A stretch of DNA of 64,000 bases from Marivivens sp. LCG002. Lineage in GTDB: Bacteria > Pseudomonadota > Alphaproteobacteria > Rhodobacterales > Rhodobacteraceae. The position numbers and the translations under genes are program-made. Positions 23,421-40,789 of this stretch are shown here, piece by piece (the first letter of the stretch is position 1; every line of letters begins with the position of its first letter). The stretch is from the NCBI RefSeq assembly GCF_030264275.1, contig NZ_CP127165.1, positions 1,724,001 through 1,788,000 of the forward strand, given 5' to 3'. The notes below the pieces were generated by a model. The model did no database searches. It saw only the letters and a list, made by a program, of their open reading frames with translations, and had not been told where the DNA came from.

Positions 23421-23437
23421 GTGATGAGCCTAGCAAG

Positions 23438-23462
23438 AATGGTGACAAATTCTGGCACCATT
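23438..23462. promoter_or_regulatory. Inverted repeat between YafY and RidA-like genes
   Basis: AATGGTG-n11-CACCATT, perfect 7-bp arms, in the 87-bp divergent promoter region. Likely operator of the YafY-type regulator. Confidence 0.6.
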
Positions 23463-23507
23463 TTGATTTATACGGAGTTCAGCAACAAAACAAAAGGAGA
23501 TTGCGAC

Positions 23508-23903: not shown

Positions 23904-23912
23904 AGCGGATAA

Positions 23913-23949
23913 AAGCGGCCTTTGAATTGTTGAAACTCTTTGGCCGCTT
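23913..23949 (+). terminator. Possible terminator after the RidA-like gene
   Basis: AAGCGGCC/GGCCGCTT arms with a 21-base loop, 10 bases after the stop; no strong T run follows. Weak. Confidence 0.35.
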
Positions 23950-24035
23950 CTATCGCTCTCATGCTAGTTGGATTTCGTAAATCCAAAGCGATATACCAGC
24001 GGCCCTTGCTGCGAAGCTGCGGACTGCGATGTTGG

Positions 24036-24863
24036 CTAGGGTCAGGATGCATTGATTTCGGCTGCGCCACGTGATTCACGGCTCCGAACACGGAGCGGTG
24101 AAATGAGTGACCTTTACTGGCTGAGTGATGCGCAGATGTCCAAGCTGGAACCCTTTTACCCAAAGTCCCATGGTAAGCCCAGGGTTGACTACAGGAGAGT
24201 GTTGAGCGGCATAATATTCATCAACCGCAATGGCTTACGGTGACGTGATGCGCCTGCAGAGTATAGACGGCACAAGACCCTTTATAGCCGATGGAAGCGG
24301 TGGAGCGAGAAAGGCACCTTCGCCCGGATGCTTCGGGAGCTGGCCGATCAGGGCGGTAGGACTGACATCCTGATGATCGATGCGACGCATCTGAAGACAC
24401 ACCGGACCGCCTCAAGCCTGGGGTTGAAAAAAGGGGGCGTGGCCACCTGATCGAGCGCACCAAGGGCGGGATGAACTCGAAACTGCACGCGGTGACCGAC
24501 GCGGCTGGCCGCCCGCTGCGGATGTTTCTTACTGCCGGCCAGCTGAGCGATTAAATCGGCGCGCGGGCACTGCTGGACGGCCTTCCTCCCGCTGAACACA
24601 TGCTCGTGGACCTTGGATACGATGCGGACTGTTATCGCGTAGCCCTTGAAGGCAAGGGGATCACGCCGTGCATCCCTTCACGAAAGAGCCGCAAGTTTCC
24701 GATCCCGCATGAAGAAGCCCGATACCGCAAGCGCCATAAGATCGAGAACAGCTTCGTCTAGCTAAAAGACTGGCGTTGCGTCACAACACGCTTCAACAGA
24801 ACTTCCTGTCAGTATGCGCTTTGGCTGCTGTCATCATGTTCTGGTTATGAATCCTGACCCTAG
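24036..24863 (+). mobile_element. Decayed IS5-family (IS427-like) insertion sequence
   Basis: About 0.82 kb between CTAG tetranucleotides, with inverted ends GGGTCAGGATGCAT on the left and, read in reverse complement, GGGTCAGGATTCAT on the right. CTAG/TA target choice is known for the IS427 group of IS5. The transposase inside has several stops and a frameshift. Confidence 0.85.
24103..24850 (+). pseudogene. IS5-family transposase, inactivated
   Basis: Starts SDLYWLSDAQMSKLEPFYP, RVDYRRVLSGIIFINRNGLR, typical for the two-frame IS427 transposases. TGA at 24241 replaces the conserved Trp codon. It resumes with RDAPAEYRRHKTLYSRWKRWSEKG and DILMIDATHLKTHRTAS (first catalytic Asp), loses frame in the A/G run near 24430, and has further stops TAA at 24552 and TAG at 24759 in the remaining frame (TKGGMNSKLHAVTDAAGRPL). 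The two-frame organisation is normal for the group; the extra stops are not. Confidence 0.85.
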
Positions 24864-25054
24864 TTTGTGTCACTTAGAACAAGCTAAATGCCATACTCAG
24901 TTTAACGTCTAAATGTATGATTTTCTAGGGTACTAGCTTGATACTTCCTCGCTCGCCCTTGGCGGCTAAATTGGCCTAGGCCTTCCCTAGGCCCCTCGCC
25001 ATCACTTTGGCTCGCGACGAAGGATCATCTGAAGACCATACTTCGCAGGGTCAC

Positions 25055-25220
25055 GCCCATTGGCATCAGAGACCGCTCAAACTGATCTTGGACTGATCGG
25101 CGCGCGGATCGAGGCTACAACGACAACCATCGACACTCAGGGCTGAAAATGCGCTTACCACGCGAGTTCATCACAGCTCAAACCGCCCCGCCTGAGTGTC
25201 CGGTCAAACGGGACAAGACC
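25055..25220 (+). mobile_element. 3' remnant of an IS3-family element
   Basis: From about 25084 to the end this segment is nearly the same as the last ~135 bases of the decayed IS3 element at 19939-21244 (GGGCTGAAAATGCGC, CACGCGAGTTCAT, GCCTGAGTGTCC) and ends with a matching terminal repeat. The encoded tail is IGARIE...SGLKMRLPREFI in broken frame. The left part has been lost. The rest of 24864-25433 holds no recognisable gene. Confidence 0.8.
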
Positions 25221-25460
25221 TGGAGCATGCAACGTCACCTTGGACCTGAACCGCTTCCCGAAGCTCTAGCGTTTCGCCGTGACAATATCACTTATAGGGA
25301 TTGCTATACCCCCTAGCCCTCTTCCTGAGTTTTTTGGGCCGCTACACTTCTTGGTTTAAATACATACGTACTTCTCGCTCGAAATGCTTTATACTGAGTA
25401 GATCCAAAGCAGTATCCGGGTCAATTTCCGCTGATGCGTAGTGACACGTTAGGAACTTCA

Positions 25461-26195
25461 ATGACATCAGCCCAACGCAACCCATTGACCCGCAAGCTCT
25501 CGGCCTTCGTCGCTCTCTCGGACGTCGAACTCGCTGTGCTTGAAGGACTTCACAAGCGTCGCCGCTCATTCGTCGCAGGACGTGATTTGGTGCATCAGGG
25601 CCAAGCGGCTCATGCTGCCTACATTCTGTCGTCAGGTTGGGTCTGTTCTTACAAGCTCCAAGCCGACGGAACCCGTCAGATCGTGGATTTCCAGTTACCG
25701 GGAGATTTTCTAGGATTGCGCAGCGTCTTGCTGCGCACTTCAGACCACAGTTTCGAACCCATCGTCGACATCGAGGCGGCTGAAGTGCTGGAGAGCGACC
25801 TTCTCGATGCGTTCGAACAGACGCCGCGCCTCGCGACCGCCATCCTTTGGGCGGCATCGCGTGACGAGGCTATGGTCGTTGAACATCTCGTCGGCATAGG
25901 CCGGCGTGATGCGGAGACCCGCATAGCGCATTTCCTGCTGGAACTAAAATCGAGGCTTACGCTCCTTGGAATAGGTAGCAAAGAAGGATTCGACTGCCCT
26001 CTAACGCAGTATCACCTCGCCGATGCACTGGGGTTGAGTGCGGTCCATGTGAACCGCATCTTGCGCCAGCTTCGCGAGAATGGACTGGTAACCTTCCGGG
26101 ACGGCCGTGTCGCGTTTCACGACTATAGTAGACTGGTGGACCTCGCCGAGTTCGACCCGACATATCTGGACCAGACCGGGCCGCTCCTCAAATAG
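25461..26195 (+). CDS. Crp/Fnr-family regulator
   Basis: 244 residues from ATG 25461 (AGGAAC upstream; an ATG at 25434 lacks a ribosome site). Cyclic-nucleotide-like beta-roll at about residues 20-125 (GRDLVHQGQAAHAAYILSSGWVCSYKL, QIVDFQLPGDFLGL) and C-terminal winged helix (CPLTQYHLADALGLSAVHVNRILRQLRENGLV). No N-terminal cysteine cluster, so it is not an oxygen-sensing FNR; it resembles the FixK/NnrR-like class of alphaproteobacteria. It stands at the left end of the SPFH block and may regulate it, but no TTGAT-n4-ATCAA box was seen upstream of those genes. Confidence 0.9.
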   Translation: MTSAQRNPLTRKLSAFVALSDVELAVLEGLHKRRRSFVAGRDLVHQGQAAHAAYILSSGWVCSYKLQADGTRQIVDFQLPGDFLGLRSVLLRTSDHSFEPIVDIEAAEVLESDLLDAFEQTPRLATAILWAASRDEAMVVEHLVGIGRRDAETRIAHFLLELKSRLTLLGIGSKEGFDCPLTQYHLADALGLSAVHVNRILRQLRENGLVTFRDGRVAFHDYSRLVDLAEFDPTYLDQTGPLLK

Positions 26196-26197
26196 AA

Positions 26198-26228
26198 GGG
26201 CCGCCTTCCGATGCTCTGAAGGCGGCCC
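26198..26228 (+). terminator. Strong hairpin after the Crp/Fnr gene
   Basis: GGGCCGCCTTC/GAAGGCGGCCC, perfect 11-bp stem with a 9-base loop, starting 2 bases after the stop. No T run follows, so termination would depend on the stem alone or on Rho. Confidence 0.6.
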
Positions 26229-26254
26229 CAAGTATTACCATCATACGATGGTGT

Positions 26255-26443
26255 TTAAGAAAGGGCGTGGGTGGCAGCGTCGAGTTCCTTGTTGGTCTCG
26301 GCGTCGTTATTGGCAGTGTTTGCCTTCTCGGCTGCTTGGTAATGCTTCAGAGCAGCGTCTTTCTTCGGGCCGGAGGGCGCTTTGTCCCAGGCGGCTTTGA
26401 CGGATTTCATCTTGTCGGCAGTCTTGTTCTGTCCGGGTGTCAT
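26255..26443 (-). CDS. Small alanine/lysine-rich protein, unknown function
   Basis: 62 residues from ATG 26443 (AAAGGA 9 bases upstream); an in-frame ATG at 26515 is less likely. Sequence is hydrophilic and helical: TADKMKSVKAAWDKAPSG, KKDAALKHYQAAEKANTAN, NKELDAATHAL. I recall similar short proteins in Rhodobacterales but know no function. It converges on the Crp/Fnr gene. Upstream on the minus strand GGAAAT, 15 bases, GTTT weakly resembles an EcfG general-stress promoter. Confidence 0.65.
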   Translation of the reverse strand: MTPGQNKTADKMKSVKAAWDKAPSGPKKDAALKHYQAAEKANTANNDAETNKELDAATHALS

Positions 26444-26655
26444 TGGGGTGGTCCTTTCATGGACGGTCGGAGAATAAGAAGCGTGCAGACACTCAAACCT
26501 GCTTGGGCTTGGCATTTCCGCGCGCTTCTCGGGTTCTCAGAAAAATGCACAACCGATTATTCGGCGGCACGACTCATTTAGCCCGCGTCGGCGCTTCGCT
26601 GCACTTACGCAGGTAAGCCCTTGCGCCTTTAGCTGGTCGTATGCCTCTGCGCTTC

Positions 26656-27069
26656 TCAAGTGATCACAGTTTGCTGATGAGAAATCCTCAGCCAAAGGTG
26701 GTCGTCGTTTAGATAGGTTGAGGCACAGAGGGCTTTGTAAATAGACACATCGGGTTTCTCTGCTGAAACGCGATAGGTAAGAATGGCGATGTCCCCACAT
26801 CTCATCACGCGCCGCTCGGTCATGATAACGGAGCGCCAACCAGTCCTTTCAAGAAGGTGAGTCCAGATCTGGTCGCCTTGGAGGATACCGGGCGGATAAG
26901 GAAAAACCATGACGGCGTTGGTCGCTGTTGTTGCGCGCGCGTTGTGGGCGCCACTGGTCCAGAAGTGTTCCTCCATTTCCCACAGTATTCCCTGTTCACC
27001 TGGAGTAAGTGTACCAGACCTGTGCGCTTCATGTGACGGTCTACTGTCGGCCGCGGATGATACAGTCAT
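26656..27069 (-). CDS. NTF2-like (DUF4440/SnoaL-type) protein
   Basis: 137 residues. The cone-like fold is suggested by the pattern LWEMEEHFWTSG, TNAVMVFPYPPGILQGDQIWTHL, WRSVIMTERRVMRCGDIAILTYRVSAEKP, YKALCASTYLNDDHLWLRISHQQT, which is that of small DUF4440-like proteins. Such domains bind small hydrophobic ligands or act as dimeric scaffolds; no catalytic residue is evident. Its ATG overlaps the stop of the upstream membrane-protein gene by 4 bp, so the two form an operon. Confidence 0.75.
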   Translation of the reverse strand: MTVSSAADSRPSHEAHRSGTLTPGEQGILWEMEEHFWTSGAHNARATTATNAVMVFPYPPGILQGDQIWTHLLERTGWRSVIMTERRVMRCGDIAILTYRVSAEKPDVSIYKALCASTYLNDDHLWLRISHQQTVIT

Positions 27070-27491
27070 TCTCCTACCCCCGCCCCACTAATGATAATCA
27101 ACTGGAATAGAAGGGCGATAATAGCGAGCACCGCCCAGAACGCTCCGCTCGTCCCGGGCCGGTCCCCGGTCCTTGTAGTGGCCGCGCGCTTCAAGCTCCC
27201 AGACGCCCGACCTGCGGGAAGCAACTGGCTCAGCTCTCGTGCGACACTGCTGTGATCGCTTTCGAGTGAGGGTACGTCCAGAAATTGGGCAAATAGCGCG
27301 CCCAAGCGTGCCTGCGCGGCGTCCTGCCCCAGCATGACCAGTTCATCGGTTTCTTTCCATGGATCAAGGCCGAGCCTCGCGAGCATGGAAAGAACGGTCA
27401 CAGCATAGCCGTTCCGGTCCTCACCTACGGAGGCATGAAGAAAGCGATCAAACTCTTGCGGGTGTGGTTTGAGAACATTTGGGGCTGCCAT
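27066..27491 (-). CDS. C-terminally membrane-anchored protein, unknown function
   Basis: 141 residues, not recognised. A soluble N-terminal part (about residues 1-110, with a helical stretch NGYAVTVLSMLARLGLDPWKETDELVML) is followed by one C-terminal helix (FWAVLAIIALLFQLIIIS) and a short tail, so it is probably a tail-anchored inner-membrane protein with its body in the cytoplasm. First gene of a two-gene operon with the NTF2-like gene (ATGA overlap). A perfect inverted repeat lies 22 bases upstream. Confidence 0.7.
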   Translation of the reverse strand: MAAPNVLKPHPQEFDRFLHASVGEDRNGYAVTVLSMLARLGLDPWKETDELVMLGQDAAQARLGALFAQFLDVPSLESDHSSVARELSQLLPAGRASGSLKRAATTRTGDRPGTSGAFWAVLAIIALLFQLIIISGAGVGE

Positions 27492-27512
27492 CGTAAATCC
27501 TTTCGGCGTTTG

Positions 27513-27533
27513 CAGGAATGCAGATCATTCCTG
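27513..27533. promoter_or_regulatory. Inverted repeat CAGGAATG-n5-CATTCCTG
   Basis: Perfect 8-bp arms, 22 bases upstream of the 27491 start and in the divergent region before the 27756 gene. No gene ends here, so an operator is more likely than a terminator, although TTTTCT follows on the plus strand. Confidence 0.55.
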
Positions 27534-27755
27534 TTTTCTAAAGGATATGCGCGGTTCGACCTCCTAGCCCTTACACAGGTCAGTGCGCGCGTCTGCCCGC
27601 GAAAAGATCATAACCGTCACTGAACTCAGGACTAACATACGTCAGCGCCGGTCCGACGATCCCAAGATAAAAGACACTAAATCGTGTAGCTGGTCAGGCC
27701 AGGGCTCCAAGGTTCCCTAGACAGTTCGAAGCTACGAAGTTTACGGAGATCAAAT

Positions 27756-28067
27756 ATGACGATGCGGTGGACTAGATCGACGGTTACTTTCTTGAATCCG
27801 TTTACCTTACCGGGCTTTCCAGAAAGTTTGCCTGCGGGCGACTACTTTCTTCTCGTCGAAGAAGAACTCATTCAAGAGCTGAGCTTCGAGGCCTATCGCC
27901 TGAAGACGACTTTTCTGACGGTGCATGGAAAGAAAGGCTCGGGACGAACAGAGTTACGGGCGGTTTCTGCCAGCGACCTGCAAGATGCGCTGATCCGAGA
28001 TTTCCGCACAAACGAGACGAACAATCATAGAAAAACAGCGCTTTCTGCGCAGGAGGACTTGAAATGA
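27756..28067 (+). CDS. Unrecognised protein, paralog of the 33447 gene product
   Basis: 103 residues; GGAG 8 bases before the ATG. The N-terminal half shares with the product of 33447-33953 the pattern TxxxFxxPFTLPGFxExLPAGDYxxxxEEE, a beta-rich stretch, and both end with a segment like LTVHxxxxG...LxASDLQDALIRDF. No known domain recognised. First gene of a plus-strand run; it overlaps the next by 4 bp. Probably soluble and cytoplasmic (no signal or membrane helix). Confidence 0.7.
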   Translation: MTMRWTRSTVTFLNPFTLPGFPESLPAGDYFLLVEEELIQELSFEAYRLKTTFLTVHGKKGSGRTELRAVSASDLQDALIRDFRTNETNNHRKTALSAQEDLK

Positions 28068-28408
28068 ATACTCCCAAATGGCTCAAACCCGGCTTCTATG
28101 GCACCGTGATCGGCGCCGCTCTTGTCGGCGTAGTAGGTTTTACCTGGGGCGGCTGGGTGACTTCCGGGACCGCGAATGACAGGGCGATGGCGATGTCGCA
28201 TGACAATGTCATCGCTTCCATGGTGCCGGTTTGTCTTGAGATGGCACGGTCCGACCCAGCACGGATGGAAAAGCTTGAAACGATCCGGGCCGCCTCGGCC
28301 TACCAAAAGCGCGATGCTCTCATAGCCGCTGGCTGGGCGACGATGCCGGGAACCGATGTACCGGACCGCGGCATTGCCCAAGCCTGCCTGCAGGAACTGA
28401 ACCTATGA
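28064..28408 (+). CDS. Small membrane-anchored alphaproteobacterial protein
   Basis: 114 residues. N-terminal helix KPGFYGTVIGAALVGVVGFTWGGWV anchors it with the rest outside the cytoplasm or as a membrane-surface domain. The soluble part has two cysteines (VPVCLEMARSD, IAQACLQEL) that could pair, plus YQKRDALIAAGWATMPGT. I recognise this as a protein type widespread in Rhizobiales and relatives, function unknown. ATGA overlap with the preceding gene; about 107 bases before the SPFH pair. Confidence 0.72.
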   Translation: MNTPKWLKPGFYGTVIGAALVGVVGFTWGGWVTSGTANDRAMAMSHDNVIASMVPVCLEMARSDPARMEKLETIRAASAYQKRDALIAAGWATMPGTDVPDRGIAQACLQELNL

Positions 28409-28515
28409 GGTCATACTGTTCAGGGTCGACGAAGTTATCGCGCGAAACGGGTCGCACCGTCAAACGAGCGAACCACACATCACACCGAGTGCGAAAACCG
28501 AGGTAGGAGCTTGCG

Positions 28516-29583
28516 ATGCCTTCTGATGACAATGGACCGGAAGATCGTGGACCTTGGAAAAACAAGCAGACCCGCGTTCCCCCAGAGGTTGAGGCAATTT
28601 TGAGGCGGGGCCGAGATCGGCTGCACGGTATCCTTCCGGATGGTCCTCCACCGGTGAAGCGTCTTGTTATCGGTGCTGCTATTGCACTTGCCGCGTTTGG
28701 GGCGTGGACCTCCTACTATACGGTGCCGAGCGACTCCGTTACGATTGTTCAACGGTTCGGGAAATATGCAGCGGAGGTCCCTCCCGGGCTGCACTTCAAG
28801 ATCCCGTTCGGCATCGACGTGACCACGTTGGTCCCGGTCAAGCGCCAACTGAAACAAGAGTTCGGGTTCACAACTCCGGGGGCAACTGATCCCTATCAGA
28901 GTCCGACGGACGGTCGCCGCGAGACCGAGATGGTGACTGGCGATCTAAACGCCGCACTCGTGGAATGGGTGGTGCAGTACAGGATTTCCGAACCTCGGAA
29001 ATTTCTGTTCGAGGTGCGTGAGCCGAGCGCAACTTTGCGTTACGTCTCAGAGTCTGTCATGCGCGAAGTGGTGGGAGACCGCACAGTCGACGAGGTAATT
29101 ACCGTCGGGCGCCAAGAAATCGAAAGCGAAGCCCTCCAGAAGATGCAAGCGCTCGCGACCAAATACGCGATGGGCATCAGCATCGATCAGGTGCAGCTGA
29201 AGAATATCAATCCGCCCCAACCCGTCCAGGCCTCCTTCAACGAGGTCAATCAGGCGCAGCAAGAGAAGGAGCGGATCATCAACGAAGCCCGCCGCGATTA
29301 TAACCGCATTATACCTCTGGCCGAAGGCGAAAAGGACCAGAGGATCCGCGAAGCCGATGGGTATCGCTCAAGGAGGATCAATGAAGCGGAGGGCGATGCG
29401 GCACGGTTCACGGCTCTACTGACGGAATACCGGCTGGCGCCCGAAGTTACACGGCGCCGGATCTACATCGAAACCCTTCAGGATGTTCTGCCGGGAATCG
29501 GCTCCAAGATCATCGTTGACGGGTCCACGGCAAGCATTCTCCCACTTTTGAACCTAGATCGACAAACAGGAGAGCAACGATGA
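28516..29583 (+). CDS. HflK-like SPFH-domain membrane protein
   Basis: 355 residues; AGGAG 7 bases before ATG. Proline-rich N-terminus, one membrane helix (RLVIGAAIALAAFGAWTSYY, about 54-73), then the SPFH/band 7 domain (SVTIVQRFGKYAAEVPPGLHFKIPFGID, VEWVVQYRISEPRKFLF, LRYVSESVMREVVGDRTVDEVI) and a charged coiled-coil (QQEKERIINEARRDYNRIIPLAEGEKDQRIREADGYR). HflK with HflC forms large cage-like assemblies that modulate the FtsH protease; this pair lies away from the usual hflX or degP neighbours, so it may be a second, specialised set. Overlaps the HflC-like gene by 4 bp. Confidence 0.9.
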   Translation: MPSDDNGPEDRGPWKNKQTRVPPEVEAILRRGRDRLHGILPDGPPPVKRLVIGAAIALAAFGAWTSYYTVPSDSVTIVQRFGKYAAEVPPGLHFKIPFGIDVTTLVPVKRQLKQEFGFTTPGATDPYQSPTDGRRETEMVTGDLNAALVEWVVQYRISEPRKFLFEVREPSATLRYVSESVMREVVGDRTVDEVITVGRQEIESEALQKMQALATKYAMGISIDQVQLKNINPPQPVQASFNEVNQAQQEKERIINEARRDYNRIIPLAEGEKDQRIREADGYRSRRINEAEGDAARFTALLTEYRLAPEVTRRRIYIETLQDVLPGIGSKIIVDGSTASILPLLNLDRQTGEQR

Positions 29584-30668
29584 AGTCCCTTTCGCTTCTT
29601 GCCTCGGGTATCGCTCTTGCGGGGTTTTTTACTGCGTCTTCCGCCGTCTACACCGTCGGCGAGGTCGAACAGGCCATCATTACCCAGTTCGGCAAGCCTG
29701 TCGGTGCACCGATTACTGAGGCTGGCCTCAAGTTAAAACTCCCCTTTGTTCATGAGGTTAACCGGATCGATAGCCGAGTTCTGGAGTGGGACGGCTCGCC
29801 ATCGGACATGCCCACCAAAGACAAGCTCTACATTTCGGTCGATCTCTTCGCGCGCTGGAAGATCACCGATCCTCTGCAATATTTTTTGCGACTTCGAGAC
29901 GAGCGCAGCGCCCAATCGCGCCTCGATGATATCCTTGGTAGCGAGACACGGAACGCCGTCGCCATGCACGAACTTATCGAAATTGTGCGCACGACCCGGG
30001 GCCGGACACCGCTTCAGGACACTCTTCTGACTGACCAGGAGCTTGCACAAGACATTGGTGCGCTAGTTCCAATAACAAAGGGACGTGCGCTGGTTGAGCA
30101 GCAGATCTTCGAGGCGGCGGCGGAAAAGGTGCGCGTCTTTGGAATTGAGCTTCTCGACATTCGTTTCAAGCGCATAAACTACAATGAGAGCGTGCGACCC
30201 AATATCTATGACCGCATGATCTCGGAGCGCCGACAGATAGCCGAAAGATTTCTGTCCGAAGGCAACGGTGAAGCAGCCCGCATACAAGGCAATAGGGTCC
30301 GGGATCTGAACAAGATCCAATCCGAAGCCTATCGCGCCGTCGAGGAAATCCGCGGGGCCGCCGATGCCGAAGCATCAGCAATCTATGCGAACGCCTACAA
30401 TGTCGATGCAGTTTCAGTCGAATTCTACAATTTCACCCGCACAATGCAGGCCTATGGCGACATGATCTCCGAAGACACAACACTTGTCCTGACGACGGAC
30501 AGCGATCTGTTCCGGTTCCTGCGAGGCATGCATGGCGAGCCAGACGCTTCCCTGACACCCAGCAGCGTTGCGGGCCCACTTGGCGTGGCGTCAACCGCAC
30601 GGACCGAGCCAACGCTGAACCCCACGACATCGATCAGCACACAGACTGAGGTCGACGCAGTCCGATAG
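29580..30668 (+). CDS. HflC-like SPFH-domain membrane protein
   Basis: 362 residues. N-terminal helix LLASGIALAGFFTAS, band 7 domain (VGEVEQAIITQFGKPVGAPITEAGLKLKLPFVHEVNRIDSRVLEWDG, FARWKITDPLQYF, LDDILGSETRNAV), HflC-type FKRINYNESVRPNIYDRMISERRQIAERF, and a coiled coil (NRVRDLNKIQSEAYRAVEEIRGAADAEASAIY). The C-terminal ~55 residues after RFLRGMHG are low-complexity Ser/Thr-rich and longer than in E. coli HflC. Translationally coupled to the HflK-like gene; the two should form a hetero-oligomer in the inner membrane. Confidence 0.9.
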   Translation: MKSLSLLASGIALAGFFTASSAVYTVGEVEQAIITQFGKPVGAPITEAGLKLKLPFVHEVNRIDSRVLEWDGSPSDMPTKDKLYISVDLFARWKITDPLQYFLRLRDERSAQSRLDDILGSETRNAVAMHELIEIVRTTRGRTPLQDTLLTDQELAQDIGALVPITKGRALVEQQIFEAAAEKVRVFGIELLDIRFKRINYNESVRPNIYDRMISERRQIAERFLSEGNGEAARIQGNRVRDLNKIQSEAYRAVEEIRGAADAEASAIYANAYNVDAVSVEFYNFTRTMQAYGDMISEDTTLVLTTDSDLFRFLRGMHGEPDASLTPSSVAGPLGVASTARTEPTLNPTTSISTQTEVDAVR

Positions 30669-30925
30669 TTTCATGAAGCAGGGTGTCAAATATGATTTGA
30701 GGCTTTCAATTGGACACCCAGGCCATCAAGGAAGGCTGCGTGCCGCTGCTGAGCAATGTTCGACCACATAATTTCCGTGCCCCTAATCTAAGTCAGCACG
30801 AGATTTCTGTTTGGCTGGTAAGTGAATAGCTGGACTTGGATCGCGATGATGCAAGGTTCTGCCGTCCCCACGCTCGAGGACGTGATATCCGGCGTCAGAT
30901 CGCTCAGCAAGGAGGACAACACGCT

Positions 30926-31408
30926 ATGACTTCAGTCAAACATCTTGCCAAGACAGCCTCAGAGACGACCGATCTTGAACGGCGCGTGCTGGCACATGAA
31001 CGGATTTTGCAGGCCCTGATTGCCTATATGGCCCGAACCGAGCCGCGTTTCGTCGACCACCTGCGAGAACGGTTCGTAGAACCGATGAGATTAACCCTGC
31101 GTGAACACGATCATCGTGAAACAGACCACTATGCGGAGGAATTTATTCGCGCGGTGATGCTTCTAGCAGAGGAGCGCATGCCCCTTGAGAAAGAGGCGGC
31201 CATTCCCGACAGGCAACCCGCTTCTGCGAAAAGCAAGGGTGGACAGGAAACTTCCATAAACAGACCGCCGTTGCACGGTTCAGTTCAAGTGCGTGAACGA
31301 AACGGCATTTGGCAAGTGGAAGTAGATGGCAAATTCCGCGGGGACTACCACCAGAAAGAACATGCTCTTGCCGCAGCGGCTTTAATAAAATTATCCCAAG
31401 ATGACTAA
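30926..31408 (+). CDS. Unknown protein with a DUF2188-like C-terminus
   Basis: 160 residues from ATG 30926 with a strong AAGGAGG upstream; the frame to 30836 lacks one. N-terminal helical part (TDLERRVLAHERILQALIAYMARTEP, then HYAEEFIRAVMLLAEER) and a separate C-terminal beta module VQVRERNGIWQVEVDGKFRGDYHQKEHALAAAALIKL, which resembles DUF2188 (a small tail domain after gW-x-V). Function unknown. Overlaps the repeat-protein gene by 8 bp. Confidence 0.7.
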   Translation: MTSVKHLAKTASETTDLERRVLAHERILQALIAYMARTEPRFVDHLRERFVEPMRLTLREHDHRETDHYAEEFIRAVMLLAEERMPLEKEAAIPDRQPASAKSKGGQETSINRPPLHGSVQVRERNGIWQVEVDGKFRGDYHQKEHALAAAALIKLSQDD

Positions 31409-32255
31409 CCGCGATCGCCCAGCAGTCTCTAACGTCTTCCCGCTTCAAGCGGCAGAAAACGAGGGCATGCCATCCAGACCCGATTTCGGAGAAACAACAT
31501 CGAGCTCCATCTCCTCAAGGCGACGAGCGAGAAAGCTCAGCCCTGGTTCGATGAGGGACAAGACGGCGAGTTGCGTGCCTTTACCCGCAAAGGAAGAACC
31601 GACAAGACTGCGCAAAAAGAAGAAAAATGCACTGGCTCGACTGACCTTCGGCCTTATTGTCGTAGCCGGAATAATTGCTTCTATTGCCTTCCCAGTTTTC
31701 GCTCAAGACGGCACTGGACCGGTTCCAGACAACGCAGAAGCACGGCACTATGGTGGGGGCTGGGATTGCGATCTTGGTTTTCGGGAGGATGGTGCCGAAT
31801 GCTTGGCCCTCTACATCCCAGATAACGCATATGCTACTCGGCGGAAATTTGGTTCGGGCTGGGCGTGTAGCCGCGGGTATCAGGAAATCAGTGGTGCGTC
31901 ATGCGAGGCGACCCGAGTCCCCAAGAACGCCCATTTGCGCACAGCGGGATATGATTGGCAGTGTGATCGCGGATATCGTCAAGATCGAGAAACCTGCGTG
32001 CCTATCGACATTCCGGAACATGGTTATCTCACAAAAGAGTCCGGATCCCATTGGGCTTGCGATCGTGGCTTCACAGTTTTGATCGATGCCTCCGATGGTC
32101 CGGGTTGGCGTTGCGAATGGAGTTTCGAGGCGGTGGACAACACCCGTATGCCGATCACGCTACCCGCCAACACCCATCTGGCTCGATCCGGAAACCGCTG
32201 GCACTGCGACCGGAACTTTCAACTTTCTGGAGGAGTATGCGTTCTTGGACGATAA
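31401..32255 (+). CDS. Membrane-tethered protein with five Cys/Trp repeats
   Basis: 284 residues. A basic cytoplasmic N-terminus (about 70 residues, ending RLRKKKKN) precedes one helix (LTFGLIVVAGIIASIAFPVFA) and an exported part made of five repeats of about 28-40 residues with the pattern GxxW-x-C-x-x-G-[YF]-x(5-7)-C-x(4-5)-[IV]-P-x-[NH]-[AG]-[YH]. Each repeat has two cysteines that could form a disulfide in the periplasm; repeat 4 is longer. I know such repeats from uncharacterised proteobacterial proteins only. Neighbours: SPFH pair upstream, transglutaminase-like protein 34 bases downstream. Confidence 0.75.
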   Translation: MTNRDRPAVSNVFPLQAAENEGMPSRPDFGETTSSSISSRRRARKLSPGSMRDKTASCVPLPAKEEPTRLRKKKKNALARLTFGLIVVAGIIASIAFPVFAQDGTGPVPDNAEARHYGGGWDCDLGFREDGAECLALYIPDNAYATRRKFGSGWACSRGYQEISGASCEATRVPKNAHLRTAGYDWQCDRGYRQDRETCVPIDIPEHGYLTKESGSHWACDRGFTVLIDASDGPGWRCEWSFEAVDNTRMPITLPANTHLARSGNRWHCDRNFQLSGGVCVLGR

Positions 32256-32289
32256 TCCCTCCAGATCTCGCCCAGCCGAGACGGCCGGC

Positions 32290-33096
32290 ATGCGAATACG
32301 GATTGGCTGTCGCCTTCGTTACCGGCTGACACAGCCGACGCTCGTCATTGCAATGCTGAATGTACACTATTCGCGGTTCGGCGATATGGAACGTGCCGAC
32401 TACCTAGTGACACATCCGAGCGTGCCGCTAGAAACCTATCGTGATGGGTTCGGCAACTGGTGCACGCGGATGATGGCTCCGTCTGGGGACTTGACCCTGT
32501 CGACCGATGGGATCTTCCGCGACACCGGACTGCCTGATCCGACACTGCCCAAAGCCGAGCAGCACGCAGTTCAGGATTTGCCCTTCGAAACCTTGGCCTA
32601 CCTTCTTGGCAGTCGTTACTGCGATACTGATCTTCTGTCTGCAGAGGCATGGCGACGCTTCGAGAATACCCCACCTGGCTGGTTACGCGTCCAAGCGATC
32701 TGCGATTTCGTGAACTCGCATGTCCGCTTTGATTATATGCAAGCAAGCGCAACCCGAACAGCTTCCGCGACGCTGGCCGAGCGTCAGGGCGTCTGTCGAG
32801 ATTTTGCCCACCTCGCCATCGCGTTTTGCCGATGCATGAACATTCCAGCGCGTTACTGCGCAGGCTACTTGAGTGAGTTAGGTCAACCAAAGCCTCACCC
32901 ACTGGACGATTTTGCAGCTTGGATAGAGGTCTTTCTAAGTGATCGCTGGTGGGTCTTCGATCCGAGAAACAATCGCCCGCGCATAGGAAGGATCTTGATC
33001 GCACGGGGTCGGGATGCAGCCGATGTGCCTCTGACCCAGACGTTCGGGCCCAATACACTGACGCAATTCAACGTATGGACTGAAGAGTTGACCTGA
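32290..33096 (+). CDS. Transglutaminase-like protein
   Basis: 268 residues from ATG 32290. N-terminal beta domain of bacterial transglutaminase-like proteins (IRIGCRLRYRLTQPTLVIAMLNVH), then the core with the nucleophile in RQGVCRDFAHLAIAFCRCMNIPARYCAGYL (Cys at about 168) and DDFAAWIEVFLSDRWWVFDPRNN. Relatives of the papain-like fold often carry the catalytic His in DFHAW or nearby; here the segment reads DFAAW, with a His in the preceding KPHPLDD. Whether it is active cannot be said. No signal peptide, so cytoplasmic. It follows the Cys-repeat protein in the same operon-like run. Confidence 0.82.
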   Translation: MRIRIGCRLRYRLTQPTLVIAMLNVHYSRFGDMERADYLVTHPSVPLETYRDGFGNWCTRMMAPSGDLTLSTDGIFRDTGLPDPTLPKAEQHAVQDLPFETLAYLLGSRYCDTDLLSAEAWRRFENTPPGWLRVQAICDFVNSHVRFDYMQASATRTASATLAERQGVCRDFAHLAIAFCRCMNIPARYCAGYLSELGQPKPHPLDDFAAWIEVFLSDRWWVFDPRNNRPRIGRILIARGRDAADVPLTQTFGPNTLTQFNVWTEELT

Positions 33097-33446
33097 TCTT
33101 GGTATCTTTTGCGACTGGACATAGTAAGTCCGACCGCAAGATCCCATATACGTAATGCCGACGCCAAGAGTTCCAGTCCGACATGGACGAGATGCTGTCA
33201 TCGGACAATTGAAAGATTGATGACATATCCTTCAAGGATCTCCCTGCCCGAGGTTTGGCTGCAATGGATCCGAAGCTTGAGGATATCGCATTGTACCCTG
33301 CCAAGGAGACCGTTTCCAAGCCTGCGCGCTTGAGCATACCAGCGGAACCCAAAACATTTGGGAAGTCCACAGACCAAGCGCCTCACATTCCAAAAGGACC
33401 TAGACCACCCAAAGCAACAATAGAAACAAGCGAAAGGAATGCACCC
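33097..33446. other. Intergenic region
   Basis: 350 bases between the transglutaminase-like gene and the next gene. ORFs in it lack ribosome sites. The AAAGGA at 33433-33438 belongs to the gene starting at 33447. Nothing else seen. Confidence 0.4.
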
Positions 33447-33953
33447 ATGGAAGAACTGACGAGCAAGACTATCGCGGTTTTCTCCCGTCCATTCACCGTT
33501 CCGGGCTTTACCGAGATGCTTCCGGCGGGCGAATACGAGATCGAAACGGAACTTTCGTCTCCACCGGATCAGGTGGACCCCGAAGCTTGGAAAGCTTCGG
33601 TCTTTGTAAGGCTTCATCCCCGCATCTCGCACCCAGGACTGGAAAGATTCCTCACTGTTTCCCTTGTGGACCTCGACCAAGCGCGCGCGAGGGACAAGCT
33701 GACTGGTAAGGAACTGACAGATTTTTTCGTTGAGGAGATGCTTGCCGACCCGATGATCCGTCTCGTTATGAAGGCGGACGGTGTCTCAGAGGCGCATTTG
33801 CGAAATCTTTATTCCCGGCCCGGGTCACAAGAGGCAGACAAAAAGCAGATAGGGCAAGTGGCTCCATCTGAGCCGAGAGATATCCAGGATGGCACGGATG
33901 CTCGAACTTCCGGCACAATCTCTAAAAGCTCTTGTCCAGGCATGGGAGAATGA
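33447..33953 (+). CDS. Unrecognised protein, paralog of the 27756 gene product
   Basis: 168 residues from ATG 33447, 8 bases after AAAGGA. The first 100 residues share with the 27756 product the motif FSRPFTVPGFTEMLPAGEYEIETE and the layout SVFVRLHP...LTVSLVDLDQARARD. The tail (residues 110-168) is hydrophilic and variable. No known domain. That two members of the same small family bracket the SPFH and transglutaminase genes suggests a shared process. Overlaps the following open frame but not its likely start. Confidence 0.7.
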   Translation: MEELTSKTIAVFSRPFTVPGFTEMLPAGEYEIETELSSPPDQVDPEAWKASVFVRLHPRISHPGLERFLTVSLVDLDQARARDKLTGKELTDFFVEEMLADPMIRLVMKADGVSEAHLRNLYSRPGSQEADKKQIGQVAPSEPRDIQDGTDARTSGTISKSSCPGMGE

Positions 33954-34023
33954 CCCCGATGTCGAACCGGTGCGTCGCGATCCATGCTTTTGCATCATTC
34001 AAATGGATCGAAGGAGCTGGGTT

Positions 34024-34332
34024 ATGACTGATGAACCTATCAATCTCGATGGGCACAGATCCCTTACCGACCAGCGCGAAACAGAAATACGTCGGCGCCC
34101 TGCGAACAGCCAGCCACCCTCTACGCTCCTATCGCAACTTGGCATCAGAGGTCTCAAAGATCAGTTGCAAGCAGGGCCTGCGCCAACGTGGGTCGAAGTT
34201 TTGAAGAAATGGCGCTTTCTTCTTGTTTGCTATGCATCGACCCCGGAGGCTCAGGATGAAGGCCTTCAGAAGCTTATCAATCAGGCCCTTGGCGACATGG
34301 AACGACTGAGGAAACGCGAGGAGCGGAAATGA
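34024..34332 (+). CDS. Small protein, unknown function
   Basis: 102 residues from ATG 34024 with AAGGAG 7 bases upstream; the frame opens earlier (33889), but that stretch overlaps the previous gene and has no ribosome site. Sequence includes TLLSQLGIRGLKDQLQAGPAPTWVEVLKKWRFLLVCYASTPEAQDEGLQKLINQALGDMERLRKR, mostly helical, cytoplasmic. Not recognised. Overlaps the zinc-ribbon gene by 4 bp. Confidence 0.62.
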   Translation: MTDEPINLDGHRSLTDQRETEIRRRPANSQPPSTLLSQLGIRGLKDQLQAGPAPTWVEVLKKWRFLLVCYASTPEAQDEGLQKLINQALGDMERLRKREERK

Positions 34333-34544
34333 CGAGCAAGTTTGCGTATGAGGAACTCGAAATTTTGCGCGCGGCAGCCGATGTTGCCGCCGAGCGCGTC
34401 TGTTTGAGGTGCAGGTCACGTTTCTTGAGCGAGGGATTTGGTGAGCGCATATGTTCACGTTGCAAGGGGTCTGCCGTGTGGCGTGCAGCACTTTCTGAGG
34501 GCAGCGGACTTGGGCGTCGTGGGTCCAGAGGTCGTTTTTCCTAG
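34329..34544 (+). CDS. Small zinc-ribbon protein
   Basis: 71 residues. Two CxxC pairs, CLRC at about residues 25-28 and CSRC at 42-45, spaced 13 residues apart, as in small zinc ribbons; the tail is Arg/Gly-rich. RLRCRSRFLSEGFGERICSRC-like fragments are common in small alphaproteobacterial zinc proteins that bind nucleic acid. It ends the plus-strand run. ATGA overlap with the preceding gene supports that it is translated. Confidence 0.7.
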   Translation: MTSKFAYEELEILRAAADVAAERVCLRCRSRFLSEGFGERICSRCKGSAVWRAALSEGSGLGRRGSRGRFS

Positions 34545-35329
34545 ACGTCGCTGACGCCACTATTCACCCTCAAGCACACTAACTTTTGTCGGCATATGAA
34601 TTCTGGTTGGCTCGCCCGCATCGGGAGGGCAAAGACATTGCAGGCAAACCTATCGCGACAGAACGGTTCGTTGAACAAAGGATGTGGCTTTAGATTAGCT
34701 CAAAGGTGGACCGAAGCGCGCCCTTCTGGTCATTTTTTGCCAACCGCTGACGTCGTCACAATACGCGGGTTCAACGATATTTTTTTCCGCACGGTTCGAA
34801 AGCTATGTATCAAGCTCAATCGACACACTGACACTGCTTAAGGGCATAATCAGAAACAACATAGCTAGAATTTTTTCTCTGCGCGACGATACCCAAGGAA
34901 CACAAGGACGACTAGCGCCCCTCGACAGAGGATTAGGATCTCGGAGGGACTTCGTCGTTCTGGTCGCCGAGGCCTCTTAGACACTAGGCTTGGGAGCCAA
35001 GTTCGTATCGGGCTGAGGGTTCATGCGATCCTTCACGTCCTCCGAAAAGCACTTTCGTCTCTTGAAGAGTGCCTATGCGTCGAAGGCAAGGGTATCGACG
35101 GTCCCTTTAGTTTTACGTCTAATCACGATCAATCTAGTGCCATTCAGACAAGCCCCTTCGCCCGCTGAAAGACTACTGCGTCCGAGAGCCAAAGTTTGGC
35201 GCACCAAGACTGGGCCTGAACGGAGAAAGTAGGACGTGAACGCAGTGAGCACCAACTCGCGGTTCACGACAAGGTCACATCGCCGCAGAGTGTCCAAGGC
35301 CTCACTATCTCGGTCTGCCCGCTAGAATT
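34545..35329. other. Intergenic region
   Basis: 785 bases. ORFs of 60-80 codons occur (34596-34841, 35023-35232) but have no ribosome sites and no family resemblance. The right part leads into the AraC remnant. Probably degraded DNA at the edge of the block. Confidence 0.5.
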
Positions 35330-35668
35330 TTGGCCGCTTTGCGGCGTCTGGTCGATGAAGGCGTAACCTTTCAGACGGTGCTAGATGAAATGCAAAAAAT
35401 TCTTGCGATCCGCTACTTGCTGAAAAGTAACTTGAACAACCAACAGTTCGCGCACCTTGTGGGCTATCGTGATCCCAATGCGTTCCAGCGTGCTTTCCGC
35501 AAATGGACCGGGATGACGCCTCAAACCCTGCGCCAGAAAATGCACAGTTGGGTGCATATTGAACGCAAGCCACCTTTGCACATGAGAAGCCCGTTTTTTT
35601 TACAATTCAAGACCTCGGCGAAAATCGGCGATATGGGCTTTAGCTTAAGAATTCAATTGCAGTGCTGA
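35330..35668 (+). pseudogene. C-terminal fragment of an AraC-family regulator
   Basis: Up to about codon 75 it matches the end of an AraC DNA-binding domain: RRLVDEGVTFQTVLDEMQKILAIRYLLKSNLNNQQFAHLVGYRDPNAFQRAFRKWTGMTPQTLRQ. The first HTH helix and the whole N-terminal sensor domain are missing, and upstream frames are broken. The residues after RQKM are unrelated. A remnant with no likely function. Confidence 0.8.
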
Positions 35669-35806
35669 CCGCTCGCTTAGGGCCGGACAAGCACGATGAT
35701 CGCTTCGCATCAATGAGGACGGCCGCCTAGCCGCACGTCCGCTTCGCACCGTTTCAAGAGATGGTGTCGTGGTTCCGGAACCAACTAGTGGCCCGGAACC
35801 ACCTCA

Positions 35807-36598
35807 TTAGATCGTCAGACCGCAAGCCTTCCGAATGGCGATCTGGACAGGCGAAGGCGGAAGCTTGGGGTCAAACTCCATGCTTGGCATCAGCGGTGGT
35901 TGAGCCATGAAGCGAGGCTCGGTCCCATGGTGCGGCTGCGCTGAATGAACCAAGAACGGATGGCACAGGTAGACCGTCCCTGCCGCTCCGGTCGCGAGAG
36001 CGATCTCGCAGTCTTTTGTCGACGCGTAGCCCTCGGCCGAGAGTTCCCTGAGCGTCGCACCTGCCTTGCCATAAGGTAAAAGTTCACGGGCAATGGTGGC
36101 GTGCGAGCCCTTGCGTATCAGCGTTGGGGCATCGTCAGGTCCGACATCCGATAAAAGGAAAAGCATCAGCAGCGCCCTTCCGCTGCTTAAAACATTTGCG
36201 CGCCATTCCATGAAGTCAGGATTCTCGGTGCCGAAGCTTACGTCGATATGCCAACCCTCATCTCCTGCGCTCTTGCTCGATGGAAAGCGGATCGGGAAAG
36301 TTCCGAGCCCTTGAGGGGCCAGCCATAGGCCTTCCCCAACAAGAGTGTTATAGGCCGCATGCAAGCGCGGCGTATTCGCAGCAGCCACGAAAGATGGCGA
36401 TGACTTCCAACCGATGCGAACGACCGGTTCGGTCCATGTCTCGGGCCGGTCTTGGGCGAGACCCAAATCGGCCCACAATTCGTTTCGGCAATCTTGGGCA
36501 AGGTCACTGCTGAAGGCATTATCTATCTTAATAAAGCCGTCGTTTATGAAGGTTTCGACCTGAAGCGGGGTCAGGGCAATGTCTTGGGCAATGGACAT
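35807..36598 (-). CDS. Phytanoyl-CoA dioxygenase (PhyH) family oxygenase
   Basis: 263 residues; AGGAGG 8 bases upstream of the ATG. Fe(II)/2-oxoglutarate-dependent oxygenase fold: iron ligands His and Asp in WHIDVSFG at about residues 116-119 and the second His in HPFLVHSAQPHHGTEPRF, with the arginine of EPRF binding 2-oxoglutarate. Substrate unknown; family members hydroxylate lipids, compatible solutes such as ectoine, and antibiotics. It stands alone on the minus strand. Confidence 0.85.
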   Translation of the reverse strand: MSIAQDIALTPLQVETFINDGFIKIDNAFSSDLAQDCRNELWADLGLAQDRPETWTEPVVRIGWKSSPSFVAAANTPRLHAAYNTLVGEGLWLAPQGLGTFPIRFPSSKSAGDEGWHIDVSFGTENPDFMEWRANVLSSGRALLMLFLLSDVGPDDAPTLIRKGSHATIARELLPYGKAGATLRELSAEGYASTKDCEIALATGAAGTVYLCHPFLVHSAQPHHGTEPRFMAQPPLMPSMEFDPKLPPSPVQIAIRKACGLTI

Positions 36599-37084
36599 TT
36601 CACGTCCTCCTTAGCGGCAGTCGCTCTGCGACGCCGTCACTATTCAAAAGGCGCCGGAGCGCATGCGACGAGGATCGCTCAGAAGAGGGGAAAGAAAATC
36701 GACATAAACATCATAGGAGATTGGCTATTATCGCCGTTCGAATAAGTCAATGACAACGCTTCTGCTACAGGAACGATACCACATCCGATTGGGTTGCTAC
36801 ATTGCCGAACCTAGCGCCTGTTTCCTGCGCTCGTCAGAGCTTCTCCACTCGCAAACGCTGATAGATGCAGGAATGGCCGGCCTTAAGAAGCCGAATAGAA
36901 CCTAGGAGTTAGACATAAAGGCAGCTTTGGGCCAGTCGATACCTCCCAGCATGCGAGGGCCCAAGGCGCAATATTGCGTCTTGAGGGTAGTCAGGTGGCA
37001 CACCATGGCGCCACATGACATCTCCGAACCAAACGTGCTTGATGTTGCGGCGCAACCGAATGTCGGCCATCGCGCCACATAGTC
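36599..37084. other. Intergenic region
   Basis: 486 bases between two minus-strand genes. It holds the PhyH ribosome site at its left edge and presumably its promoter. No other gene, repeat or hairpin stood out. Confidence 0.4.
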
Positions 37085-37441
37085 TTAGATACGGGTCTTT
37101 GGCGCAGCTTCGCGATCTGAATCACCCGAATTGGGTTCTCCCTTTGGTTCAATCAGAAGAACCTTCACCTCGGATTCCGCCCTCGGTCGATGAACCACGC
37201 CTTTGGGCACAATGAACAATTCACCCGCCTTGACCGTGCGCGAAGGCTCCCCTTCGATATCCATTTGCATCTCACCTTCCAGAACGTAGAAAAAGTCATC
37301 GGTGTTGTCGTGTTTGTGGAATGGATACTCACCTTTGAGCTTTACAACCATGACCTCGTTTTCATTGTAGTCAGCGACAACACGCGGATCCCAATGCGTA
37401 GAAAATTGTGAAAGTTTCTCTGAGAGATTTATTGATTTCAT
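37085..37441 (-). CDS. Single-domain cupin protein
   Basis: 118 residues with both cupin motifs: FHKHDNTDDFFYVLEGEMQMDIEG (motif 1, H-x-H...E) and FIVPKGVVHRP (motif 2, His). Metal would bind His/His/Glu/His. Small cupins of this type stand near AraC regulators and may be isomerases, dioxygenases or ligand-binding proteins; no substrate can be assigned. Divergent from the AraC-type gene, with their ends almost touching, so they probably share a control region. Confidence 0.85.
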   Translation of the reverse strand: MKSINLSEKLSQFSTHWDPRVVADYNENEVMVVKLKGEYPFHKHDNTDDFFYVLEGEMQMDIEGEPSRTVKAGELFIVPKGVVHRPRAESEVKVLLIEPKGEPNSGDSDREAAPKTRI

Positions 37442-37456
37442 TGACGATTTCCTTCT

Positions 37457-38383
37457 TTGTGCTGTTCCAATCTACTTTCGAAGCCGTTGGAGGGACTTCC
37501 CATCCATAACAAACAACGATCCAAGGAGATAAAACCACAAGACCTAACACCGGGTCTTGAACGATCGTGCGCGACTGATTGGGTCAAGACCGCGCCATGG
37601 CAAACTGGCATTCAAAGGATCGAGGCTTATTTCTCTGGCGAAGCCTACGCCCCTCATCGCCATGATACCTATTCGATTGGCTACACAATCAAAGGTGTCC
37701 AAAGCTTTAACTATCGCGGTGCGCGTATCGACAGCGTCGCTGGGCAAGTGATTGTTCTTCATCCCGACGAAATTCATACTGGCGAGGCTGGGACAGAAGC
37801 TGGTTTTCACTATCGAATGCTCTATGTCGAACCTTCTTTGGTGCGTGACGCCCTAGGGGAGAGCGCAAGCGCACTTCCGTTTTTGCATGACGCGGTTCTA
37901 ACCGATCCGCTTTTGATGAGAGCAATCCATGCCGCGTTTACGGTTATGGACAGGTCTCTTGAAGCAGTCGCGATGGATGAACTGACAGTATTGTTGGCGG
38001 ATGGGTTGCTTGCAAATGATACATCCGCTCGTCGAACTACCCGGTCTTTGATCGATTACAAAGCAATCCGACGTGCCAAAGACTACTTGGAGAGCAACCT
38101 CAGCGAGACTGTTCCCTCGGACGAGCTTGAAAAAATCACTGGCTTGGACAGGTATGCGCTGTCGCGCCAGTTTCGAAAGGCCTTTGGCACAAGTCCGTAT
38201 CGGTATCTGACGATGCGCCGACTGGATCAGGCCCGTGGAGACATTGCAGCTGGAGTCCCCCTTATCAAAGCGGCGCTGCGTGCAGGATTTTCCGATCAGG
38301 CACATATGACACGGCAATTCAAAGCAGCTTTTGGGATTTCACCAGGACAGTGGCGACAATTGGTTCAAAAAACCAATCATTGA
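37457..38383 (+). CDS. AraC-family regulator with cupin sensor domain
   Basis: Up to 308 residues. The longest frame starts at TTG 37457, only 15 bases from the divergent cupin gene; no ATG lies near and the true start is probably some 20-40 codons later. N-terminal AraC ligand domain (YFSGEAYAPHRHDTYSIGYTIKGVQSFNYRG, VIVLHPDEIHTGEAG) and C-terminal double HTH (AIRRAKDYLESNLSETVPSDELEKITGLDRYALSRQFRKAFGTSPYRYLTMRRLDQA, AALRAGFSDQAHMTRQFKAAFGISPGQWR). Likely activator of the adjacent cupin gene. Confidence 0.9.
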   Translation: MCCSNLLSKPLEGLPIHNKQRSKEIKPQDLTPGLERSCATDWVKTAPWQTGIQRIEAYFSGEAYAPHRHDTYSIGYTIKGVQSFNYRGARIDSVAGQVIVLHPDEIHTGEAGTEAGFHYRMLYVEPSLVRDALGESASALPFLHDAVLTDPLLMRAIHAAFTVMDRSLEAVAMDELTVLLADGLLANDTSARRTTRSLIDYKAIRRAKDYLESNLSETVPSDELEKITGLDRYALSRQFRKAFGTSPYRYLTMRRLDQARGDIAAGVPLIKAALRAGFSDQAHMTRQFKAAFGISPGQWRQLVQKTNH

Positions 38384-38743
38384 CCGAAGTCGACCTTCCT
38401 TTGATCTTAACTTAGGCCCGCTGCGCCCCCCCAACGGCATTCCGACTAGGGTTTTTCCCGTCGAGACTGTTTGATCAGGCTCTAGAGCTCGCCCTGACAC
38501 TGAACCATATCGATTTTCTTAGACCAGTCCGTGACATAGCCATCGGTAAAAGCGAGAAACTCATCTACTCGCCGAAGGAAACACCCGACACGCGCTTGGT
38601 TCAGGATGTCTAGGAAGGCAGGGGCTTGGAAAAGGGCCCTCTCGGCGGCACTTATTTCCTCAAGCGCATGCCACCATGCAAGAGCCTAGCGCCAGAGTTA
38701 TTCCACACGGCTTGAAGTTCTGTCGTCGGTCCCAGCCACAATT
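38384..38743. other. Intergenic region with a possible gene remnant
   Basis: 360 bases. On the minus strand 38482-38680 reads open with a protein-like sequence (HALEEISAAERALFQAPAFLD, QARVGCFLRRVDEFLAF, GYVTDWSKKIDMVQ) ending in TAG, but lacks a start codon and ribosome site. It looks like the C-terminus of a lost gene that I cannot identify. Confidence 0.35.
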
Positions 38744-38780
38744 TGACATTGCACTTGTCAAAATGACATGTATAATGTCA
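38744..38780. promoter_or_regulatory. Two tandem MarR-type operators over the promoter
   Basis: TGACA-n7-TGTCA occurs twice, at 38744-38760 and 38764-38780, centres 20 bp apart. The second box covers TATAAT at 38771-38776; TTGCAC 16 bases upstream gives the -35. With ATG at 38783 the message would be nearly leaderless. Confidence 0.7.
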
Positions 38781-38782
38781 AT

Positions 38783-39846: not shown

Positions 39847-39945
39847 TCGGGCATAAATCCTTCGAATGTGATCGGAGGATATACCTACCCTACCCCCTTA
39901 ACGCAGCCATTGATCCAAGCAGATTGTGATTTTAACATTAAGTCC

Positions 39946-40780: not shown

Positions 40781-40789
40781 GAAAATGGG

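Follow-up and report, generated by a model that had tools for sequence, protein, structure and literature searches.

Tandem two-cysteine repeats resembling EGF modules in a putatively exported protein of Marivivens sp. LCG002 and their association with cold-shock and chaperone genes

What kind of protein is encoded by a gene of Marivivens sp. LCG002 in which one Trp/Cys pattern recurs in tandem, and what might it do in the cell? The gene lies in a stretch of 64,000 nucleotides (positions 1,724,001 to 1,788,000 of contig NZ_CP127165.1), here called the window, to whose first letter all positions refer. The initial annotation, made from the letters alone, had described a membrane-tethered, disulfide-rich rod of five repeats and suggested that it binds a ligand or polymer. 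The reading frame on which this rests is open from 31401 to 32255 and the Trp/Cys pattern is real (Table 1). Six W-x-C motifs are found (residues 121, 154, 186, 218, 236 and 267), the one at residue 236 (WRC) falling within the fourth repeat, and ten of the eleven cysteines are C-terminal of the hydrophobic segment, where they form the pairs of five W-x-C...C units (123/134, 156/168, 188/199, 220/238 and 269/280). The pattern W.C..[FY]..C, with variable spacers, matches the mature part five times, a count reached by none of 20,000 composition-preserving shuffles of this part (maximum 2), and the repeats are thus beyond chance.

Table 1. Positions of the repeat protein gene, its parts and its neighbours in the window.
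Feature	Position	Strand	Remarks
Crp/Fnr-type regulator	25434..26195	+	Pfam HTH_Crp_2, cNMP_binding; relative in 57/87 loci
dC and dD, unnamed	26656..27491	-	dD with hydrophobic segment near C-terminus
Divergent dD/dE intergenic region	27492..27755	.	length and sequence conserved across the cluster
dE, unnamed	27756..28067	+	one similarity cluster with dI
dF	28064..28408	+	N-terminal hydrophobic segment, 2 Cys; in 76/87 loci
hflK-hflC pair (SPFH)	28516..30668	+	HflK shares 35% identity with the other HflK relative detected in this genome
dG, unnamed	30926..31408	+	mechanical ORF start 30836
Repeat protein gene, 284 aa	31401..32255	+	start overlaps dG end by 8 bases
Basic N-terminal extension, residues 1-75	31401..31625	+	conserved in closest relatives
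Hydrophobic segment, residues 83-101	31647..31703	+	end VFA|Q; probably the core and cleavage site of a signal peptide
Repeat 1, residues 109-139	31725..31817	+	
Repeat 2, residues 140-173	31818..31919	+	
Repeat 3, residues 174-204	31920..32012	+	
Repeat 4/6 hybrid, residues 205-254	32013..32162	+	about 49 residues absent relative to relatives; junction near residue 226
Last repeat, residues 255-284	32163..32252	+	corresponds to relatives' repeat 7
Transglutaminase-like protein (tgl), 268 aa	32290..33096	+	Transglut_core on the longer ORF 32086-33096; in 77/87 loci
dI and dJ, unnamed	33255..34332	+	downstream cluster genes

Searches with the window protein returned no match in NCBIfam (E up to 10), PHROGs (up to 1) or PADLOC (up to 0.001), no second match in its own genome at E up to 10, and four Pfam matches, each below its cut-off. 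A sequence search of the PDB gave four rows, the best of which, to DNA polymerase mu (E 0.077), we read as chance. Relatives were found by tblastn in 30 plasmid records, the best in Roseovarius indicus (57% over the full length), in 35 of 198 whole genomes of the same family, the window's own counted, and in 19 of 385 whole genomes of the class. The search with a repeat profile in proteobacteria that the initial annotation had proposed detected the repeats in at least 13 of 398 genomes of the phylum, a lower bound since no more than 20 candidates were scored in each genome. Phage origin is without support, as none of the 59 viral stretches that matched a pattern encodes a relative. Among the titles and abstract openings searched, which take in few subscription papers, none describes the repeat family or a cluster that links it with cold-shock or HflK genes.

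Most of what can be said about function comes from the surroundings of the gene, a conserved alphaproteobacterial cluster that is invisible from the letters of one stretch and on which the initial annotation was silent. We counted genes over 87 loci, comprising the window, six plasmid stretches and the 80 best-scoring loci, some of them on short contigs; since these are the best 80 of 488 coding stretches from the bacterial genome scan, the counts lean to close relatives, nearly all of them labelled as Rhodobacteraceae. At unannotated loci, genes were called by tblastn with fixed queries, so that genes recorded as absent may be diverged. The recurring order is groL-groES (reverse), dA, crp, dB, dC and dD (reverse), followed by dE, dF, (hflK, hflC), dG, the repeat gene, tgl, dH, dI, dJ and a second transglutaminase gene, tgl2. 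The most frequent members are tgl (77 of the 87 loci), dF (76), dE (63), dI (61) and crp (57), followed by tgl2 (48), dG (46), groL (30), and hflK and nhaA (15 each). The window carries the layout from crp through dJ, without groESL and without tgl2, which tblastn did not find at this locus. Three plasmids have transposase, recombinase or conjugation genes close to the cluster. Two loci labelled as from other lineages, Oceanobacillus sp. HTM 045 (L111) and Methylotetracoccus (L088), carry Rhodobacteraceae-type clusters, and their assemblies are possibly mislabelled or mixed.

The cluster is largely unexplored, since Pfam at E 0.01 left six of ten scanned neighbours unmatched and none of ten scanned passed an NCBIfam cut-off. 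Measured with fixed margins, the divergent dD/dE intergenic region is 311-315 bases long at 38 of 53 loci (305 in the window), and its 8-mers recur in up to 43 of the 53. Neither a known operator nor a known RNA family could be recognised in it: FNR-type and CRP-type boxes occur in none of the 53 regions, a loose TTG-N8-CAA in nine, and GGAA/TTCC palindromes, in either order and in differing layouts, in 16. Rfam gave no match at gathering scores in window 25-36 kb, and no tRNA gene was found in the 64-kb window. The related small genes dE and dI (33255-33953) stand on both sides of the operon core.

The adjacency of hflK-hflC in the window, the near-constant transglutaminase gene and the presence of groL in 30 of the 87 loci would agree with a quality-control helper of HflK-HflC/FtsH or of the transglutaminase-like enzyme, for which it would present envelope substrates or shield them. 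We regard such a role as improbable, though, as hflK occurs at only 15 of the 87 loci and the 20 loci from outside the window's family have neither hflK nor groL nor tgl, the only cluster genes there being dE (three loci), crp (one) and dM (one).

Comparison with these relatives changes how the five repeats of the window protein are to be seen. The mature part has 232 residues in 68 of the 69 parsed relatives (11 of the 80 loci were not parsed), with 14 cysteines in 67 of the 69 and, by pattern matching, seven repeats of about 33 residues in 66 and six in three, as opposed to 183 residues, about 49 fewer, in the window copy; outside the window's family, pattern counts give four to eight repeats per protein. 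Aligned to its relatives, the window copy shows a single gap spanning repeat 4 to repeat 6, and we therefore take its fourth repeat to be a hybrid of the first half of repeat 4 and the second half of repeat 6, in which repeat 6's second cysteine is gone and Cys 220 and Cys 238, both first-position cysteines, are without their usual partners. The five W-x-C...C units of the initial annotation are present, but five is an atypical number and the fourth of them is this hybrid, so that the five-repeat state looks like the outcome of a deletion and the window copy may be impaired. At three other loci (L061, L062 and L065), the repeat gene still encodes its N-terminal extension and signal peptide, and the array is gone. 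Given these losses and the shortened window copy, the array seems prone to deletion. At L062, the repeat-gene frame continues directly into the transglutaminase.

It is therefore worth asking whether the gene is decaying in this genome and its product no longer works, which we consider unlikely. About 49 residues were lost in frame from a part of near-constant length in close relatives, with them a cysteine of repeat 6, tgl2 was not found, and three other loci have lost the array entirely; moreover, the one genus-mate among the 198 family genomes has no relative of the repeat gene, and its matches to window 21001-41000 are confined to parts outside 25-36 kb. On the other side, the frame is still open, the number of mature cysteines is even, every gene from crp through dJ is found, and residues 102-214 compared with L002 give a dN of 0.11 against a dS of 0.97.

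Is the protein tethered to the membrane, as first proposed? The basic N-terminal stretch and the one hydrophobic segment are both there, the latter with a mean hydropathy of 2.46 and followed by Q102. The extension is probably translated, as its dN/dS is about 0.2-0.54 in the six pairs, of seven, for which dS could be computed; against L002, dN is 0.33 and dS 0.61, the pattern of a coding sequence that is less constrained than the repeats. We called cleavage sites by eye, from a hydrophobic core and small residues at -3 and -1, and all of these are seen in the segment at residues 83-101. Position -3 in the 69 parsed relatives is V in 55, A in nine, L in two, and I, T and S in one each, -1 being A by construction because A-Q served as the parsing anchor. 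By the same visual reading, 19 of the 20 relatives outside the window's family have an ordinary-looking N-terminal signal peptide directly followed by the first repeat, and the twentieth (L209) has a broken frame. An extension of about 75 residues is unusual for a signal peptide. This length and the coding-like character of the extension in the closest relatives would suit an uncleaved anchor, making the protein a type II membrane receptor or adhesin with a cytoplasmic basic tail, an arrangement we think has little chance of being right given the V/A-x-A|Q ending in most of the 69 parsed relatives and the ordinary-looking signal peptides beyond the family. We read residues 83-101 more readily as a signal peptide, one whose n-region is long, than as a membrane helix, and of the tethered rod first proposed it is the tether that is not supported.

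The rod itself fares better. AlphaFold2 predicts chains of small modules with four short strands per repeat, which we read as two hairpins, both for a seven-repeat relative (L067; mean pLDDT 86.6, the order between modules being uncertain at a pTM of 0.50) and for the window copy (pTM 0.55, pLDDT 80.2, falling to 61-68 in blocks near the hybrid). Together with the repeats and paired cysteines, this supports the disulfide-rich exported rod of the initial annotation. Its suggestion that repeat number speaks for polymer binding is weakened, since mature length hardly varies in close relatives (232 residues in all but one) and the window's state looks deleted.

Among the 50 best Foldseek rows, the top ones for the L067 model are the EGF chains of NEL and NELL2 (E 2.4e-4 and 1.0e-3), and the best for the window copy are NELL2 EGF1-6 (E about 1e-3) and complement regulators. 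VIA-align Z-scores over the 50 best rows are weak, 2.9 to MSP1-19 over 39 residues and at most 3.7 to any chain, so that shape alone does not decide the fold. The tandem EGF rods of NEL and NELL2, the TNF receptor and sushi/CCP rods, all among these best rows, are likewise chains of small disulfide-rich modules, with structural scores that stay weak (VIA Z up to 3.7) and with more disulfides per module. Sushi/CCP modules have four cysteines per about 60 residues, and we set this identity aside for repeats with two cysteines per about 33 residues and an invariant W-x-C, the probability to CD46/CD55 being 0.63 or less.

The closest sequence likeness is to the first EGF module of Plasmodium MSP1-19 (EGF_MSP1_1, PF12946), with which the repeats share, in order, P-x-N-A, G-x-x-W-x-C-x-x-G-F/Y and C, and from which they differ in having two cysteines per module, up to seven tandem modules and a bacterial host. 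The window protein scores 20.3 bits against this model as a whole and 22.1 for residues 96-284, below the cut-off of 27, whereas five of ten relatives searched singly pass it at 30.0-41.2 bits, the other five reaching 20.9-26.7. A profile match to a characterised repeat family, which the initial annotation had taken as speaking against it, thus exists for relatives and not for the window protein itself. Two of the five passing relatives come from Shewanella and Vibrio and are related through the repeats alone. At E ≤ 1, the model matches all 54 family members (best 2e-11), of which other Cys-rich Pfam modules also match many, SVWC 46 and cEGF 35. None of eight shuffles made from four passing proteins (parents at 30.0-41.2 bits) with C, W and G fixed was reported, so that the match uses more than cysteine spacing. 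The relatives' profile, vpen...W.C..GF.e...C, aligns to the MSP1 chain 1n1i at E 0.045, which is not significant alone, and a search of genomes with PF12946 was uninformative (none of 398 genomes, the window's own included, and none of 14 controls).

A classical EGF module has six cysteines and three disulfides, and with two cysteines per module the repeats are not of this kind. In the MSP1 module of some Plasmodium species, a valine and a tryptophan replace one cysteine pair, and by analogy such modules would fit the two-cysteine repeats. The likeness may reflect either common ancestry or convergence.

Two further comparisons concern the company the repeats keep. The tLST, or locus of heat resistance, as presented in the main text of PMC8290217, likewise gathers extra copies of proteostasis genes in a cluster, the copies here being groESL and hflKC. 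We set aside, though not strictly, the identity of the two, since none of the tLST core genes dna-hsp20-clpG is annotated in four plasmid stretches of the repeat-gene cluster and the words transglutaminase and HflK do not occur in that main text. In a Shewanella plasmid protein (P0002), five such repeats follow a PG_binding_1 domain; the unit is of the same kind and stands at the C-terminus, but the protein is another one and belongs to another operon, with an Hsp70-family protein and an IetA-like ATPase. By analogy, this fusion points to the cell wall. The Shewanella plasmid operon (L008 1-8451), which encodes the Hsp70-family protein, the IetA-like ATPase (PADLOC E 2.9e-26) and the PG_binding_1 protein with five repeats, adjoins a Tn7-like TnsE gene, and an Aeromonas relative (H32) matches residues 19-298 only, without the repeats.

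A second layout joins the repeat gene to cold-shock genes. In it, the cold-shock gene is divergent, and the series DEAD-box helicase, (dF), repeat gene and tgl runs on one strand. The helicase occurs at 13 of the 87 loci, every time within 2 kb of the repeat gene, and the cold-shock gene at 20, at 19 of them within 5 kb; a cold-shock gene accompanies the helicase at 12 of these 13 loci, and the one exception, L093, is a contig of 3.8 kb. In a set of 54 repeat-gene loci, a cold-shock gene stands within 5 kb at 12, against 0.67 expected from 266 cold-shock genes in 237 Mb of 57 genomes. Outside the window's family, a DEAD-box gene lies within 2 kb at five of 20 loci, the five being spread over four families and two of them belonging to one genus, against 0.17 expected from 117 DEAD matches in 84 Mb of the 20 genomes. 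The Poisson probabilities (9e-12 for the cold-shock gene and 1e-6 for the DEAD-box gene), which assume independence and preset distance limits, are a guide only, since the loci are not independent and the limits were chosen after seeing them. At three loci outside the family (L205, L211 and L214), helicase, cold-shock gene and repeat gene share one strand; L211 and L214, from one genus, have them in this order, with 16 and 44 bases between cold-shock and repeat gene in tblastn coordinates. The arrangement as a cold-shock operon is found in part of the relatives only, and the window is not among them: tblastn found no csp or DEAD-box match in its 64 kb, and in its genome the nearest cold-shock gene is about 78 kb away (among three listed of five) and, of seven DEAD matches, the closest lies at about 334 kb.

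The reading we favour, with a probability of roughly 0.5, is that the protein is an exported, probably periplasmic, rod of single-disulfide EGF-like modules that serves as an envelope arm of a temperature-stress response. Because relatives often adjoin cold-shock or chaperone genes, its role would probably be envelope protection at temperature change, and the data are most simply explained by recruitment of such a rod to gene sets for temperature stress. The gene would be induced by temperature or another stress, its product exported with cleavage of the signal peptide, each module closed by one disulfide, and the rod might then act as a scaffold holding an envelope partner. The first candidate for this partner is the small membrane protein dF, present at 76 of the 87 loci and the most constant companion besides tgl, and the second is peptidoglycan. 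Against this reading stand the window's own cluster, which has the crp/hflKC layout without a cold-shock neighbour, the 15 of 20 loci outside the family that lack both a DEAD-box gene within 2 kb and a cold-shock gene within 5 kb, the alteration of the window copy in an otherwise near-constant region, the SVWC and cEGF matches, and the low VIA-align scores (Z ≤ 3.7).

The helicase, cold-shock and also desaturase neighbours found at part of the loci, and the small disulfide-rich exported repeats, could also be taken for a secreted cold-protective protein acting directly on ice or on an extracellular polymer. Regular threonine arrays are known from ice-binding proteins, and the absence of such an array here, with a crp/groESL layout that is not specific to cold, makes this highly improbable.

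The favoured envelope rod would add a bacterial case to the EGF-like modules, which are usually thought of as extracellular parts of animals or parasites. A near-constant seven-module family whose gene order links it with cold-shock and chaperone genes is a testable gene set that bears on envelope protection of Alphaproteobacteria during temperature change, and the repeat protein itself is a compact natural rod with two cysteines per module. A broader proposition, which we offer as speculative and on the whole doubtful, is that such rods could be a temperature-response envelope component of Alphaproteobacteria, made in some lineages with the RNA-unfolding DEAD-box helicase and cold-shock protein, elsewhere with additional GroESL/HflKC, which would couple the cytoplasmic response to envelope protection, and whose modules would share ancestry with the EGF module found in surface proteins of apicomplexans.

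Two other features of the window lie upstream of the cluster. Between 14000 and 20000, GC content is 0.39-0.43 in 2-kb windows, compared with about 0.55 around it, and this stretch was possibly acquired; parts of 24036-24553 match two separate places in the genome of the genus-mate and are perhaps a repeat or mobile remnant.
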